Source: Nitrospirota bacterium
GTDB lineage: Bacteria; Nitrospirota; Thermodesulfovibrionia; Thermodesulfovibrionales; UBA6898
DNA: 64,000 nucleotides
Assembly: GCA_016214855.1 (NCBI GenBank)
Contig: JACRMT010000013.1
Span: forward strand, 1-64,000
Reading direction: 5' to 3'
Under the pieces are notes generated by a model. The model worked only from the letters and a program-made list of their open reading frames with translations, was not told where the DNA came from and searched no databases. The position numbers were made by a program, and so were the translations under genes. How positions within the stretch are numbered: position 1 is the first letter of the stretch; every line of letters starts with the position of its first letter. This document shows, one piece after another, positions 30,920-48,373 of this stretch.

Positions 30920-31522
30920 ATGTCAGATAGTGAAAAACCGTTACCAAAACCGCCGAAGACACCCTTTGGGAAAAAGCGGATGAGCGAAGAAGAACAGGAG
31001 GGACAGGCCCCTCTGATGGCAGACCAGATGGCAATGGCTGCAGCAACCGGAAATCTCGACCGGTTCATGCAGCAGAATATCCCTGACAATGAGCATGCGC
31101 GCAAACTGGCCATGATGATGATGGGTATGACCGGTATGATGCCGCCCGGAGCCTTTCCCGGAAAGAGCGCAGAGGCTATGCAGCCGCCTCCTGCGGCAGC
31201 ACAGCCGGAGCAGTCAGGAGAAGCAGCGCCCGAAACAGAGGTTCCTGAGGATGTGAGGCAGGCGATCATGTCAGGCAATATGGAGGAACTGAAAGGACTG
31301 CTGATCCGTGAGCATCAGAGGCGAACCGGCTCAATCATCTCAGAAGTTCCTCCTGCTCCAGAGGCAGAGGCTGGATTCAATACAGCGCCTTCAGGCATCG
31401 AAAAAGAGATATTGGACGAAATGATCAGGATCGCCGCGGCCAACAGCGTCACTCTTGACTGGCTCATCATGAGGGCATTGAAGGTCTTCATCCAGGAGTA
31501 TCAGAAAACCGGCAGGCTTTAA
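30920..31522 (+). CDS. Met/Pro-rich cytoplasmic protein of unknown function
   Basis: A 200-aa hydrophilic protein with no signal or membrane helix. The N-terminus is Lys/Pro-rich (KPLPKPPKTPFGKKRM). The middle is strikingly Met-rich (LAMMMMGMTGMMPPG at about 64-80) and then Pro/Ala/Glu-rich and probably disordered. The C-terminal 45 residues (EKEILDEMIRIAAANSVTLD, then LIMRALKVFIQEYQ) form a likely helical domain. AAGGAG precedes the ATG. I recognise no family. The methionines could bind Cu(I), in keeping with nearby metal genes, but this is speculation. Confidence 0.6.
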   Translation: MSDSEKPLPKPPKTPFGKKRMSEEEQEGQAPLMADQMAMAAATGNLDRFMQQNIPDNEHARKLAMMMMGMTGMMPPGAFPGKSAEAMQPPPAAAQPEQSGEAAPETEVPEDVRQAIMSGNMEELKGLLIREHQRRTGSIISEVPPAPEAEAGFNTAPSGIEKEILDEMIRIAAANSVTLDWLIMRALKVFIQEYQKTGRL

Positions 31523-31525
31523 ATA

Positions 31526-31557
31526 CAGAGAGGACAGGAACTATCCTGTCCTCTCTG
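31526..31557. terminator. Perfect 14-bp hairpin between convergent genes
   Basis: CAGAGAGGACAGGA (31526-31539), a 4-base loop, then the exact complement (31544-31557). It sits between the stop of the Met-rich gene and the stop of the converging Cys-rich gene, the classic place for a bidirectional terminator. No strong T-run follows on either strand, so it may work as a processing or stalling hairpin. Confidence 0.7.
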
Positions 31558-31579: not shown

Positions 31580-31966
31580 TTAGATCTTCTTCATCTCGTT
31601 CTTGCAGGTACATTTGCCAGGGTTCTGGCTTATCGTGTCGCATTTGCACTCAGGCCCGCATGCACATGCATACTTGCCGGTTGCCTTGAAGGCCCGCTCT
31701 TTTTCCCACTTTTCTGCCTTGAGCATTACCTTTTCACCGTCAATCTTTGTCACCTTTGCCTTGACCATCTCCTTGTCGCAGGTGCAGTTGCCGGCATTTC
31801 TGGACATGGTCTTGCACGTGCAGCTGTCGCCGCAGTTGCAGGCAAATATCTCATCGCCGACCTTCAGATCCATCTTTGCCTTTGCAGCAGCAAAAGAGAG
31901 TGCAACAAAAGCCGCCATCACCATCACCATCACCATTACCATTGCCATAAGAATCAGCTTCTTCAT
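31580..31966 (-). CDS. Exported Cys-rich metal-binding protein, two modules
   Basis: A 128-aa protein with an export helix (about 4-25) and two copies of a strict six-cysteine module, C-x-C-x3-C-x-C-x9-C-x-C: one at about residues 43-63 (CNCGDSCTCK...GNCTC) and one at about 100-122 (CACGPECKC...GKCTC). Between them is a short strand-rich segment VKAKVTKIDGEKVMLKAEKW. The pattern suggests a metallothionein-like metal cluster outside the cytoplasm. The signal peptide contains an MVMVMVM run from a repeated ATGGTG hexamer, which offers several alternative ATG starts. It is the last gene of the leftward molybdenum-hydroxylase/NosL block and a paralogue of the gene at 47942. Confidence 0.72.
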   Translation of the reverse strand: MKKLILMAMVMVMVMVMAAFVALSFAAAKAKMDLKVGDEIFACNCGDSCTCKTMSRNAGNCTCDKEMVKAKVTKIDGEKVMLKAEKWEKERAFKATGKYACACGPECKCDTISQNPGKCTCKNEMKKI

Positions 31967-32088
31967 CGTCTATCACCTCCTTTCTCCGTCAACCCTAAAC
32001 TTATGATTATCAGGCTGTATCTAAAATCTATTGCATTTCGTCAAAACTGTCAAGAAGAACTTTTCCTCTTGTCTGACGGTCAGCACTG

Positions 32089-32976
32089 CTATTTCAGGAT
32101 CTCCCACATATCTTCAAAAGCTGCCTGAAGTGCAACGTCAAAGCTCCCGACAGCCCCGCCATGAGCCCTGACAAATTCTTCTGCGTCCTTTCTCATTTCA
32201 AAGGCCCACTTGCCCCGTATGGACATAACACCCTGCCTGTCGCCGCCGATCACCCAAAAGGCCTTCCTGGCATTGATCAGCTTTTTTGTCCCATAATCTC
32301 CTGCACCGATAAAACCCGCTGGCACGCCATAATTCAGTGCAAGATCTATTGCAGTGCAGTGGATGCTGCAGGTCCCGGTTTCGCCCGGTCCTTTCTTCTG
32401 CACGACAAGCATTCTGCTGAAATCGAATTTTCTCCTGTCCATACCGCAGTATTTACAGTCAGGATGGACCTGTATGTCGTTCTTTTTTGAATAGGCTGCA
32501 TGTTTTCTGCCCTGCGGCATGGTCACGTCACCGGCCATATCGCTGAATACAGTCTTCATCGCCTCGTCATAAGAAGCCAGCTTGCCGCCATGTTCCGCGA
32601 TGAATTTTTCAGCGGCAGTCCTCTCCGCAAACGCCCACTTTGCGCGCCTTGACATAATGCCTGTCCTGCCCCCTCCGATAACCCAGACCGCCTTCCCGGC
32701 ATCAACAAGTTTTCCTGTAGCATAGTCAGCCACCATCATGCCGGTTATCGTCTTTTCCCTGTGTGCAGCCATATCCACAGCCGTACAGCGAATACTGCAT
32801 GTCCCGCCCTTTGAGCCGCCGTCGTAAGCAAGCAGCATGCGGCCCATCAGATGCTTCTGCCTGTCCATACCGCAAATCAGACAGGCGGGATACTCCTTCA
32901 GATCATCGGGATGATTGTCGTTAACTGCAGCGATAAGGAGGCTGGCGATGCACAGAAGAAGCACGATCTTTCTCAT
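32089..32976 (-). CDS. Tandem NosL-like protein (two domains)
   Basis: A 295-aa exported protein with a signal peptide (1-17) and two NosL-like repeats of about 140 residues. Each repeat has CxxCGMD (C32/C35 and C174/C177), a GTCSIxCTA segment, YATGKLVDAGKAVWVIGG or YGTKKLINARKAFWVIGG, and a closing AHGG. NosL binds Cu(I) and helps mature nitrous-oxide reductase; two fused copies in one chain are unusual. There is no nosZ here. The start overlaps the MocA-like gene by 4 bases, so it is part of the molybdenum hydroxylase operon. A copper or molybdenum-site maturation role is inferred. Confidence 0.78.
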   Translation of the reverse strand: MRKIVLLLCIASLLIAAVNDNHPDDLKEYPACLICGMDRQKHLMGRMLLAYDGGSKGGTCSIRCTAVDMAAHREKTITGMMVADYATGKLVDAGKAVWVIGGGRTGIMSRRAKWAFAERTAAEKFIAEHGGKLASYDEAMKTVFSDMAGDVTMPQGRKHAAYSKKNDIQVHPDCKYCGMDRRKFDFSRMLVVQKKGPGETGTCSIHCTAIDLALNYGVPAGFIGAGDYGTKKLINARKAFWVIGGDRQGVMSIRGKWAFEMRKDAEEFVRAHGGAVGSFDVALQAAFEDMWEILK

Positions 32977-44501: not shown

Positions 44502-44900
44502 ATGCGGCCTTCTGAGTATCTTCCGCACCGGTATCCTTTTATCATGCTCGATACGGCAGAGGTGATCGAAGAAGGCCGGCGGGCAAAGGGTTCCCGGCAG
44601 ATAACCATCAATGACCCCATCGTGCTTCCTGACGGCACACTGCCCCAGGTCTATATTATTGAATCCATGGCTCAGGTGTCAGGCATTGCAAGCGGCAGAA
44701 AAGGACGCTCACTCTTCGCAGCCATCAGCGGCCTGAACTTCCACGGGACGGTCAGGGCAGGCGATACGCTTGAGGTGGAGAGTATCGTAGAGCGCAGCAT
44801 AGGCGGCATGTATATTTTTATTGCCCGCGCCTCTGCTTCAGGGAAGGTTATTGCAGACGGGGGGATAGTTCTTCACTTTGATGAGAACCAGAGAGGATAA
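44502..44900 (+). CDS. FabZ-like 3-hydroxyacyl-ACP dehydratase
   Basis: A 132-aa hot-dog-fold protein. The catalytic His is in LPHRYPFIMLD, and the Glu/Gln helix is in YIIESMAQVSGIASG. The remainder (FHGTVRAGDTLEVES) fits FabZ/FabA-like dehydratases and the related hot-dog proteins of aryl-polyene clusters. I start it at 44502; a frame from 44457 would overlap the carrier gene and add 15 non-family residues. It lies 7 bases from the carrier stop and overlaps the transporter gene by 20 bases. Confidence 0.85.
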   Translation: MRPSEYLPHRYPFIMLDTAEVIEEGRRAKGSRQITINDPIVLPDGTLPQVYIIESMAQVSGIASGRKGRSLFAAISGLNFHGTVRAGDTLEVESIVERSIGGMYIFIARASASGKVIADGGIVLHFDENQRG

Positions 44901-47265
44901 GCTTCCGTTCATCTGGGCCCTTGCCAGGAGGTTTCCGATCATCACCGTGCTGGCATCGGCCATTGCCGTGCTGGCATCTGTCGGCGCAATACTCGGCGCG
45001 AACTTCAATACCGATGTCACACGCCTGATCCCTGCAGACGCCCCAAAGACCTCGCTCTATTTTGATCTTGTCGATAAGACCGGCGGCATGGATAAGGCAT
45101 ATATCGTCTTCAGTTCCGACCGGATAATGGACCATGTCGAAAAGATAGAAGCGATCGGCCGGGAGATCGGCTCATCCCCTATGGTGACAAAGGTCTCCTG
45201 GAAAATATCCGGAGAGGCAAAGACATTTCTGAGAGACGTCTATGCAAAAAAAGCCCCCCTGCTTCTGTCACCGGGCGAGATGGAGGAGTTCACCAGGAAA
45301 CTCAGTCCCGGGGGCATGGAACGGGAACTCGAAAAGACCCGCCAGAGGCTGCTGCTGCCCGGCAGCCAGGAAGGCCTGACCATGGCCGATCCCCTGAACT
45401 TCTTTGAGATGTTCCTGCCGCATATGCGCCTTGCTGATGGTTCCTTTGATCCCTCTTCAGGCTATTTTCTGACCCCTGATAAAAAAAATCTGATCATGAT
45501 CCTTACGCCTGCCGGCTCGCCGCGCGATATTGCATTCTCGGAGAAGTTCATCAAGAGCACGGGATCAATATTGGAACGATACAGGGGCACTGACCTCACT
45601 GCGGAGATAACCGGCAGCCACGCTATCACACTCCATGAGGCATCTGCCATGAAGAGGGAGATCGTCATGAATACGGTTTCCTCTCTCGCGGGCGTAATGC
45701 TCATATTTCTGATATTTTTCAGGTCGCTGAAAGGACTGCTCTATGTGATGTTCCCGGTCGTTACCGCGATGATCATGACCCTCGGCATAACGCTTCTCTT
45801 TTCCAATGCCCTTTCAGAGGTGACCGGCGCATTCGCCGGCATGCTCGCCGGACTGAGCGACGATCTGGGCATTGTGCTTTACGTCAGATACCTCGTGACC
45901 GCAGAAGAACATACAAACCCTGCCGAACGCATGGACAGGACCATCAAGGCCGTGTACCGCGGCATAACCACCGGCGCCCTTACCACCGCAATAACTTTTC
46001 TGCCGATGGTCTTCTCGTCCTTCAGGGGGATCCGTGAACTCGGCCTTCTGACCGGCATCGGCATGCTCCTCTGCTGGCTCCTGCTCTTCACCCTGGCATC
46101 GCTCACCATAAAGCCGTCCTCAGGCAGGTTTATCGAGATCCGTGCGCTCAGGAATATTGCCTTATATGCGTACCAGAGGCCTTTGCGCATCATCTGCCTG
46201 TTCTTCTTCTCAACCTTAGCCCTGGCCTTTTTCATCCCCCGCATCCAGTTCATGGGAGATATCACCAAACTCGGTACTGATGACAACAGACCGCGTCAGG
46301 CATTTGAGCGGCTGAAGGATACCTACATCAAAGAACAGGGCGTCTTTATTACAGACATCTCCATGGAGATGGAATCAGCTCTGGTAAGAAGTGTTGAGAT
46401 AAAGGAGGCACTTGCAAAGAATTTAGAACATATAACAACAGCAGGAGATATCCTGCCGCCGCAAGCACGGCAGAAAAAGAATCTCGCAGCTCTTGCTGAG
46501 CTTGATCCGCAGAGGGTCGTCCGGGATTTTCAGAAGATCGCCGCAGAAAAAGGGTTTGATGTTTCAGAGTTCCGGGTATTCACGGAAGGTCTGCATACCA
46601 TACTGCGCAACAGGGAGACGATCACGCTCAGGGATGTTGCGCCGATCAAAGACGTGCTTGAAAGGCTGCTGATCAATGAGGACGACCAGTGGAGGATCAT
46701 TGTTACGGGCAATCTGAGAAAGGACGCGCCCCTGTCAGCGCTGGACGGATACACGCATACCGGGCCTGCCTTCATACGGCAGGAGCTTATTTCGATCCTG
46801 AAAAAAGATACGGCACTCATCGGCCTTATTGCGCTGGCATTCGTGAACATCGTCCTGTTCGTCGATTTCAGAAAGCTGGGCCTTGTGCTGCTCTGCCAGG
46901 TCCCGGTCATTGTCAGCATCATCTGCACACTCGGCATCATGGGCATGACCGGCATAAGCCTCAACTTCATGAATGCAATCATCTTTGTGCTGCTCTTCGG
47001 CATCAGCACAGACTATACGGTCCACCTTTTGCATCAGTATCGTGCTGACAGGGACATCGGCACGACCTTTCTCCAGACCGGCAAGGCTGTACTCGTAGCA
47101 GGTCTTACAACCGTTGCTGGAATCGGTTCTATCGGTTTTTCCACATACAAGGGACTGGCGACCATGGGCCAGGTGGCATCCATCGGCATTACCCTCTCTA
47201 TCGTCCTCTCACTGACCCTTATTCCGGCACTGCTCAGACTGTATGAAGGCAGAACAAACCGATGA
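44881..47265 (+). CDS. MMPL/RND-type lipid exporter
   Basis: A 794-aa inner-membrane protein with two RND halves. Helix 1 is at about 17-37, followed by a periplasmic loop (FNTDVTRLIPADAPKTS), five helices from about 260-420 with AGLSDDLGIVLYVRY, a second loop, and five more helices from about 640 with LLFGISTDYTVHLLHQYRAD. The paired Asp in SDDLG and the STDYT motif are MMPL proton-relay features. Family members export lipids, hopanoids or aryl polyenes to the outer membrane. A TTG three bases earlier is possible, but ATG 44881 is preferred. It overlaps genes on both sides. Confidence 0.88.
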   Translation: MRTREDKLPFIWALARRFPIITVLASAIAVLASVGAILGANFNTDVTRLIPADAPKTSLYFDLVDKTGGMDKAYIVFSSDRIMDHVEKIEAIGREIGSSPMVTKVSWKISGEAKTFLRDVYAKKAPLLLSPGEMEEFTRKLSPGGMERELEKTRQRLLLPGSQEGLTMADPLNFFEMFLPHMRLADGSFDPSSGYFLTPDKKNLIMILTPAGSPRDIAFSEKFIKSTGSILERYRGTDLTAEITGSHAITLHEASAMKREIVMNTVSSLAGVMLIFLIFFRSLKGLLYVMFPVVTAMIMTLGITLLFSNALSEVTGAFAGMLAGLSDDLGIVLYVRYLVTAEEHTNPAERMDRTIKAVYRGITTGALTTAITFLPMVFSSFRGIRELGLLTGIGMLLCWLLLFTLASLTIKPSSGRFIEIRALRNIALYAYQRPLRIICLFFFSTLALAFFIPRIQFMGDITKLGTDDNRPRQAFERLKDTYIKEQGVFITDISMEMESALVRSVEIKEALAKNLEHITTAGDILPPQARQKKNLAALAELDPQRVVRDFQKIAAEKGFDVSEFRVFTEGLHTILRNRETITLRDVAPIKDVLERLLINEDDQWRIIVTGNLRKDAPLSALDGYTHTGPAFIRQELISILKKDTALIGLIALAFVNIVLFVDFRKLGLVLLCQVPVIVSIICTLGIMGMTGISLNFMNAIIFVLLFGISTDYTVHLLHQYRADRDIGTTFLQTGKAVLVAGLTTVAGIGSIGFSTYKGLATMGQVASIGITLSIVLSLTLIPALLRLYEGRTNR

Positions 47266-47945
47266 GCAGCAAGTTCTGCTGCCTGATCCCTGCCTTTAAT
47301 GAAGAGAAGAGGATCAGCGAAGTTATCGCAGGTGTTCGGAAAGTCATCCCTGAGGTGATCGTGGTCGATGACGGCTCGCATGACACCACTGCCGAACTGG
47401 CCGAGAAAGCAGGCGCTCATGTGATCAGACATGAGCAGAATTGCGGCAAAGGTATGGCTCTCAGGACCGGCATCAGCCATGTGCTCAAACAGGGATATGA
47501 TGCTGTCATGACGGTTGACGGCGACGGCCAGCATGCACCTGCCGAAATAGCAGATTTTCTTGCTGCATTTGCATCCGACAGAGGTGATATAATAATAGGT
47601 ACAAGGCTCTGGGACAGGGCGGCAATGCCGTTGTATCGTTATATCCCGAACCGGATCGGAGTATTCTGCATCTCGATGGCTGCGGGCTGCCGGATCGATG
47701 ACACACAGTCAGGCTTTCGCCTTTACAAAAGGGAGGTGCTGGAGACAGTGCAGCTCGAGACAACCGGCTTTGAGACAGAGACAGAGATACTGATCAAGGC
47801 AGGACAGGCCGGGTTTCGGATCTACAGCATGCCTGTCTCGGCGATCTATGACAGCGACTATACTACAAACTTCAGACCGATTCGGGACTTTTACCGGATC
47901 AGCATACTTTTTTTGAAACTGACCATCTTCGGAGGTGTGAAATGA
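47262..47945 (+). CDS. Family 2 glycosyltransferase
   Basis: A 227-aa cytoplasmic transferase of the dolichol-phosphate-mannose-synthase type. The nucleotide-sugar motif is CCLIPAFNEEKRISEVI with VVDDGSHDTTAELAEKAG, and the metal-binding DXD equivalent is VDGDGQHAP. Later come DDTQSGFRLYKREVL and FETETEILIKA. It lacks the C-terminal membrane helices of some relatives but has a hydrophobic end. It overlaps the exporter gene by 4 bases and the next gene by 4 bases. It may glycosylate or transfer sugar to the exported lipid; the sugar and acceptor are unknown. Confidence 0.87.
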   Translation: MSSKFCCLIPAFNEEKRISEVIAGVRKVIPEVIVVDDGSHDTTAELAEKAGAHVIRHEQNCGKGMALRTGISHVLKQGYDAVMTVDGDGQHAPAEIADFLAAFASDRGDIIIGTRLWDRAAMPLYRYIPNRIGVFCISMAAGCRIDDTQSGFRLYKREVLETVQLETTGFETETEILIKAGQAGFRIYSMPVSAIYDSDYTTNFRPIRDFYRISILFLKLTIFGGVK

Positions 47946-48373
47946 AAAAGATCTTCAGGACAGCACTCATGCTGGCAATTGCGATCGGACTTACAGCCAC
48001 TGCGTCATGGACAGCGGACACGGCGACAAAAGGAGCAGATGTCTATTTCTGCGACTGCGAAGAAGGCTGCCCCTGCCCTTCACCCTATCTTGAGCCGGGT
48101 ACCTGCGAATGCGGCCTTGCGCTTGCAAAGGGAAAGGTGATCAGGATCGACAGGGAGAAGGACAGGATATATCTCTGCAAGTGCGACGACGACAAGTGCC
48201 CATGCGCATTCGATCCGAAAGACCAGACCAAATGCGGCTGTAACTATAAGGTGAAGGAATATCCTCTCAAGGGCAAGTATGTCTGCAACTGCGGCCCTGA
48301 CTGCAAATGCAACACGGTTTCGGTCAGTCCCGGCAAATGCTCCTGCGGCGTACCGCTGAAGAAGGTGGAGTAA
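47942..48373 (+). CDS. Exported Cys-rich metal-binding protein, three modules
   Basis: A 143-aa protein with a signal peptide (about 1-25) and three copies of the six-cysteine module C-x-C-x(3,4)-C-x-C-x9-C-x-C: CDCEEGCPCP...GTCECG, CKCDDDKCPC...TKCGCN and CNCGPDCKC...GKCSCG. Modules are separated by short basic strands (LAKGKVIRIDREKDRIYL, KEYPLKGKYV). It is the paralogue of the two-module protein at 31580. The even Cys spacing suggests a zinc or copper cluster outside the cytoplasm, in the manner of metallothionein. The start overlaps the glycosyltransferase stop as ATGA, so it belongs to the lipid-export operon. Confidence 0.75.
   Translation: MKKIFRTALMLAIAIGLTATASWTADTATKGADVYFCDCEEGCPCPSPYLEPGTCECGLALAKGKVIRIDREKDRIYLCKCDDDKCPCAFDPKDQTKCGCNYKVKEYPLKGKYVCNCGPDCKCNTVSVSPGKCSCGVPLKKVE

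Follow-up and report, generated by a model that had tools for sequence, protein, structure and literature searches.

A NosL-linked family of putatively exported six-cysteine-module proteins in Nitrospirota and other bacterial phyla

The window analysed here is a stretch of 64,000 nucleotides from the genome of a Nitrospirota bacterium (contig JACRMT010000013.1). Its minus strand encodes at 31580-31966 a small protein of 128 residues, P1, delimited by its open reading frame and translation and supported by alignment and by substitution rates. The protein begins with MKK, followed by a long hydrophobic stretch and SFA/AAK, which reads as a Sec-type signal peptide spanning residues 1 to about 26 (31889-31966, minus strand); a low-confidence helix of the AlphaFold model covers residues 3-29. 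Two modules of strict CxCx3CxCx9CxC spacing follow: C43-C63 (CNCGDSCTCKTMSRNAGNCTC, 31778-31840, minus strand) and C101-C121 (CACGPECKCDTISQNPGKCTC, 31604-31666, minus strand). The earlier note had described two such modules behind a signal peptide, and reading frame, translation and alignments agree with it, the signal being assigned by sequence reading. The mature protein would contain 12 cysteines in 102 residues, arranged in six CxC pairs, and no histidine. P1 is thus small, cysteine-rich and built on CxC motifs, as expected of a metallothionein by composition. Four exact matches to this spacing were counted in the window, against none in 100 first-order Markov windows. Compared with four relatives, the gene shows a dN of 0.08-0.15 and a dS of 1.1-1.8 (dN/dS about 0.06-0.11) and is under strong purifying selection.

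Upstream of P1 on the same strand lies the gene of a tandem NosL protein (32089-32976, 295 residues), which the earlier note had recognised as such; PF05573 matches it in two stretches (8.1e-22), and each domain carries CxxCGM. Between the two genes, a sequence scan identified a putative promoter, TTGACA-N17-TAGATT (32025-32053, minus strand). It is followed on the same strand by a semi-conserved element (CCTGATAATCATAAGTTTAGGG, 31993-32014) that could act as operator or leader, and by a strong, conserved ribosome-binding site (AAAGGAGGTGAT, 31972-31983). The NosL-linked orthologues share this arrangement of TTGACA-type promoter, semi-conserved TATAA..TTTAG element and ribosome-binding site. 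A genome search allowing up to three mismatches found the 31993-32014 element in a single copy, the P1 site itself. At two related loci (L100 and L101) the element is almost a perfect inverted repeat (in L100, CCTAAAG...CTTTAGG) and might serve as an operator. A conserved RNA hairpin in the leader was rejected, since the orthologous leaders fold differently. On the 3' side, a perfect 14-bp hairpin (31526-31557, minus strand, -29.1 kcal/mol) is a putative terminator between convergent genes. P1 had been taken for the last gene of a leftward run; it does follow that run, but because it possesses promoter-like, ribosome-binding-site and terminator-like elements of its own it is probably independently expressible and not simply the last cistron. 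Genes similar to P1 are mostly stand-alone in the neighbourhoods of relatives. The convergent neighbour (30920-31522) encodes a conserved hydrophilic protein of 200 residues that has no Pfam match and stays adjacent to P1 across the same genus.

A paralogue, P2 (47942-48373, plus strand, 143 residues), carries three modules, located by translation and alignment on the plus strand at C37-C57 (48050-48112), C79-C100 (48176-48241, an x4 variant) and C115-C135 (48284-48346). Two more copies with two modules, on C7 and C18, bring the genome to four members, three of which lie away from NosL, like most copies of the family. P2 overlaps by 4 nt the end of a glycosyltransferase gene, which itself overlaps the gene of an MMPL-family transporter (44878-48373 for the whole run). 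This order is kept in two further genomes (L081 and L085) and shows no evident link to copper. Two genes before the C18 copy (G000:C18) stands a gene for a YtkA-domain protein (L078:5040-5753), preceded by a response regulator/histidine kinase pair; the N-terminal part of the protein is a run of CxC/CxxC-rich repeats (KCQCKGDGKDCKCGKDCKCEHC...).

The kinship of P1 with the protein at 47942, proposed from the window alone, was borne out by alignment. All 12 cysteines are invariant in 22 aligned sequences (21 two-module proteins and P2), all 18 are invariant in 19 three-module sequences, and the x3/x9 spacing is exact in 105 of the 110 modules gathered. Relative to the three-module form of P2, the two-module form of P1 lacks the middle module; the three-module form is present in more Nitrospirota families. 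Searches of other genomes recovered relatives in Nitrospirota and in other phyla. The family occurs in 22 of 41 genomes of close relatives, the window's own included, in 15 genomes of one 198-genome draw across the phylum, in 18 of 395 genomes from the phylum of a Geobacteraceae MAG (G223), and at single loci in a Deltaproteobacterium, a Syntrophaceae MAG and an Aminicenantes MAG. Relatives' genes were called by a simple ORF procedure, several of these relatives being incomplete metagenome assemblies. An apparent fusion in G507 (a 680-residue frame) was rejected as an artefact of GC-rich DNA, a long frame within which the real gene starts. No relatives were found among the viral contigs and plasmids searched. 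Signal peptides were assigned by eye throughout; those of P1 and P2 lack a twin-arginine motif on inspection, and the signals of some family members resemble a lipobox (LVFAAC, LSSC, LFAGC), which supports an extracytoplasmic location. Judged by their sequences, P1 and P2 are members of an unnamed bacterial family of putatively exported six-cysteine-module proteins. Neither this family, nor its pairing with NosL, nor an exported bacterial metallothionein was described in the literature searched, in which few subscription journals were covered.

No Pfam or NCBIfam model reached its cut-off for P1 or P2, and a PDB sequence search returned no match to their family; the searches thus revealed no characterised family with a different role. 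P1 was accordingly rejected as a metallothionein already known to Pfam or NCBIfam, scoring 16.2 bits with Metallothio_2 (cut-off 23) and 11 bits with Metallothio_PEC (cut-off 31.8). Family members reach a best E of 0.0028 with Metallothio_PEC, match the copper metallothionein MymT weakly and below threshold (11 of 22 members, best E 0.0043), and give a similarly weak sub-threshold match to periplasmic CopK. These matches to MymT, CopK and plant metallothioneins could reflect cysteine composition. The ExtJ model NF040942 scored 16.3 bits against a cut-off of 52.5, over the inter-module stretch alone. Neither the NosL domain PF05573 nor the HMBD domain PF19335 was detected by Pfam in P1 or P2, from which the CPMHP and CPxCGM motifs are absent. 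The modules might nevertheless descend from the heavy-metal-binding domain HMBD and, like it, deliver metal: the C-terminal half of the module reads PGxCxCGMxL where HMBD reads PGxCPxCGMxL, 4 of 19 three-module proteins match PF19335 weakly (best E 0.0071), and the last-module profile aligns PGxC-CGMxL with a score of 20.2, against a mean of 8.5 and a maximum of 14.3 for permuted columns (0/100). The alignment covers only about 14 columns, however, its E-values are far from significance in a library search, and the module has CxC in place of CxxC and lacks both the CPMHP half and the spacing of CPxCGM. Such a descent is distinctly unlikely; as it concerns ancestry, it is compatible with a Cu(I)-thiolate role beside NosL.

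The gene neighbourhoods point to copper more strongly than could be foreseen from the window, where the link had been suggested by the NosL gene. Fourteen genomes have NosL directly beside a CxC gene, with both genes on one strand. Of these, 11 belong to the window's Nitrospirota family and cover four genera, a further one comes from a second Nitrospirota family, and the other two fall in the phylum of G223; the group of 11 may represent one inherited event. Tandem NosL lies immediately upstream of the P1 orthologue in 11 genomes, at a distance of about 60-430 nt, whether molybdenum-hydroxylase genes are present or absent; in G001 a short ORF is called between the two genes. In several relatives (L013, L019, L026, L100) the first domain of tandem NosL has lost CxxCGM and the second retains it. 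In the 198-genome draw, NosL was found in 15 of the 15 CxC-positive genomes versus 46 of 198 overall (p 4e-11 per genome and 3e-6 per genus, both uncorrected for kinship and genome size). The control gene XdhC was found in 2 of 15 versus 22 of 198.

The earlier note had placed P1 in a molybdenum-hydroxylase block, and an accessory role for the neighbouring periplasmic hydroxylase would agree with their adjacency, seen in the window and also in several genomes of its genus. The tie does not hold: the CxC-NosL pair persists without an adjoining hydroxylase block in G018, G020, G023 and G307, the last from a different phylum, XdhC is not enriched in the draw just cited, and P1 has a promoter-like sequence of its own. 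Such a role is barely credible. A general periplasmic scavenger of soft metals (Zn, Cd, Hg, As), linked to NosL through shared metal stress, would fit the many copies that stand alone with a strong ribosome-binding site and promoter-like sequence, and the four paralogues in a single genome, which suggest a division of labour. This explanation is rather unlikely given the specificity of the NosL adjacency and co-occurrence, the position of one family member (L021) beside CopC and CopD, and the scanned neighbours of CxC genes, among which no ArsR/MerR regulators and no arsenic or mercury genes were recognised.

The association extends to a nitrous oxide reductase cluster. In G143, nosZ (TIGR04244, 824 bits for a cut-off of 625) is followed by part of nosR, nosR/nosD (nosD over the TIGR04247 cut-off), an ABC ATPase and permease, SCO1, NosL, a 103-residue protein, the CxC gene, a second NosL and MacB/FtsX. 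The three-module CxC gene is thus flanked by two NosL genes, beginning 23 nt after the small ORF and ending 12 nt before the second NosL. G487 repeats the association, in the order CxC-NosL-small ORF-MacB/FtsX-ATPase. In two phyla, CxC and NosL genes have beside them a gene for a small putative membrane-anchored protein (L109:8528-8836, 103 residues, no Pfam match found; L229:6321-6644, 108 residues), which may belong to a copper operon as well.

The AlphaFold model of P1, built on the 22-sequence alignment, reaches a pLDDT of 85.5 over the whole chain and of about 90 across most of the mature part, which is ordered and all-beta; that of P2 (pLDDT 69.8) is too weak for use. The predicted strands of P1 fit a small SH3/Tudor-like beta-barrel in which module 1 would separate the first strand from the second and module 2 would lie at the C-terminal end, a placement derived from secondary structure and aligned ranges on a metal-free model. 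The best matches among PDB folds were SH3/Tudor-like (VIA-align: Z 6.0, rmsd 2.2 over 53 residues; Foldseek: best E 0.17). They are middling, are interpreted as a common small-barrel arrangement and should not be taken for homology. No known metallothionein appeared among the structural matches of either program. An ordered fold, an even number of cysteines and an exported sequence would also suit a metal-free structural or extracellular protein stabilised by disulfides. CxC pairs are a usual mark of metal-thiolate proteins, and disulfides within such pairs are rare; a disulfide-stabilised protein is disfavoured for this reason and, given also the association with copper genes, is very unlikely.

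The most probable reading is that P1 acts in the periplasm as a Cu(I)-thiolate protein that buffers or donates copper in partnership with NosL, a reading to which we assign a probability of about 0.6 on the strength of sequence and gene context. P1 would be exported by Sec to the periplasm, where each six-cysteine module would fold so as to enclose a small Cu(I)-thiolate cluster, possibly of about 4 Cu if the Cu4S6 clusters of other CxC proteins are a guide, both modules being carried by the small SH3/Tudor-like barrel. Loaded in this way, it could buffer periplasmic Cu(I) and exchange it with NosL-type chaperones. The window's genome encodes NosL, and NosZ was found neither there nor in its genus; a direct role in N2O reduction is therefore unlikely in this organism, where P1 more likely serves buffering or another client, that is, copper buffering and detoxification or some other copper-requiring partner. 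In NosZ-bearing genomes such as G143, the CxC protein might hold copper for the maturation of N2O reductase. The broader view, that the family consists of folded extracytoplasmic metallothioneins forming a Cu(I) reservoir that feeds NosL, and thereby NosZ where present, across several phyla, is possible and is put forward tentatively. If it is true, metallothionein-like chemistry, here borne by an ordered scaffold, would extend to the periplasm of Nitrospirota and other anaerobic lineages. N2O reductase destroys N2O, a greenhouse gas. Part of the copper-delivery pathway becomes directly testable through a CxC candidate whose gene is flanked by two NosL genes within a nosZ cluster, the mechanism of copper handover from NosL to N2O reductase being stated as unknown (PMC6530538).

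Several known systems invite comparison. NosL is a Cu(I) chaperone with sulfur ligands, the clade II proteins having CXXCXM (PMC6530538), a type that the CxxCGM of the window's tandem NosL fits. NosL (PF05573) has no CxC modules and P1 and P2 have no detected NosL domain; the gene of P1 adjoins that of NosL. The copper store Csp1 is cysteine-rich, is exported by Tat and holds many Cu(I) ions outside the cytoplasm (PMC7558416). P1 resembles it in being cysteine-rich and, by its predicted signal, exported. Csp1 has a Tat signal and a four-helix bundle, whereas the CxC family combines Sec-type signals and CxC modules with an all-beta model. P1 as a Csp copper storage protein was rejected on the all-beta model of its mature part (pLDDT about 90) and a signal without twin-arginine. 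The bacterial metallothioneins (SmtA/BmtA; MymT) are, like P1, small, cysteine-rich and provided with CxC motifs, but P1 differs by its fixed spacing and its signal peptide and does not reach their curated cut-offs. Metallothioneins are moreover described as folding upon metal binding (PMC7558416), whereas the P1 model is already ordered. An exported metallothionein-like buffer had been presented as a distinct biological idea; that part stands as regards a genuine module family of metallothionein-like composition and motif, while Csp1 had already provided a precedent for copper-thiolate chemistry in an exported protein. The nearest functional precedent of P1 is Csp1 and its nearest chemical precedent is the metallothioneins.
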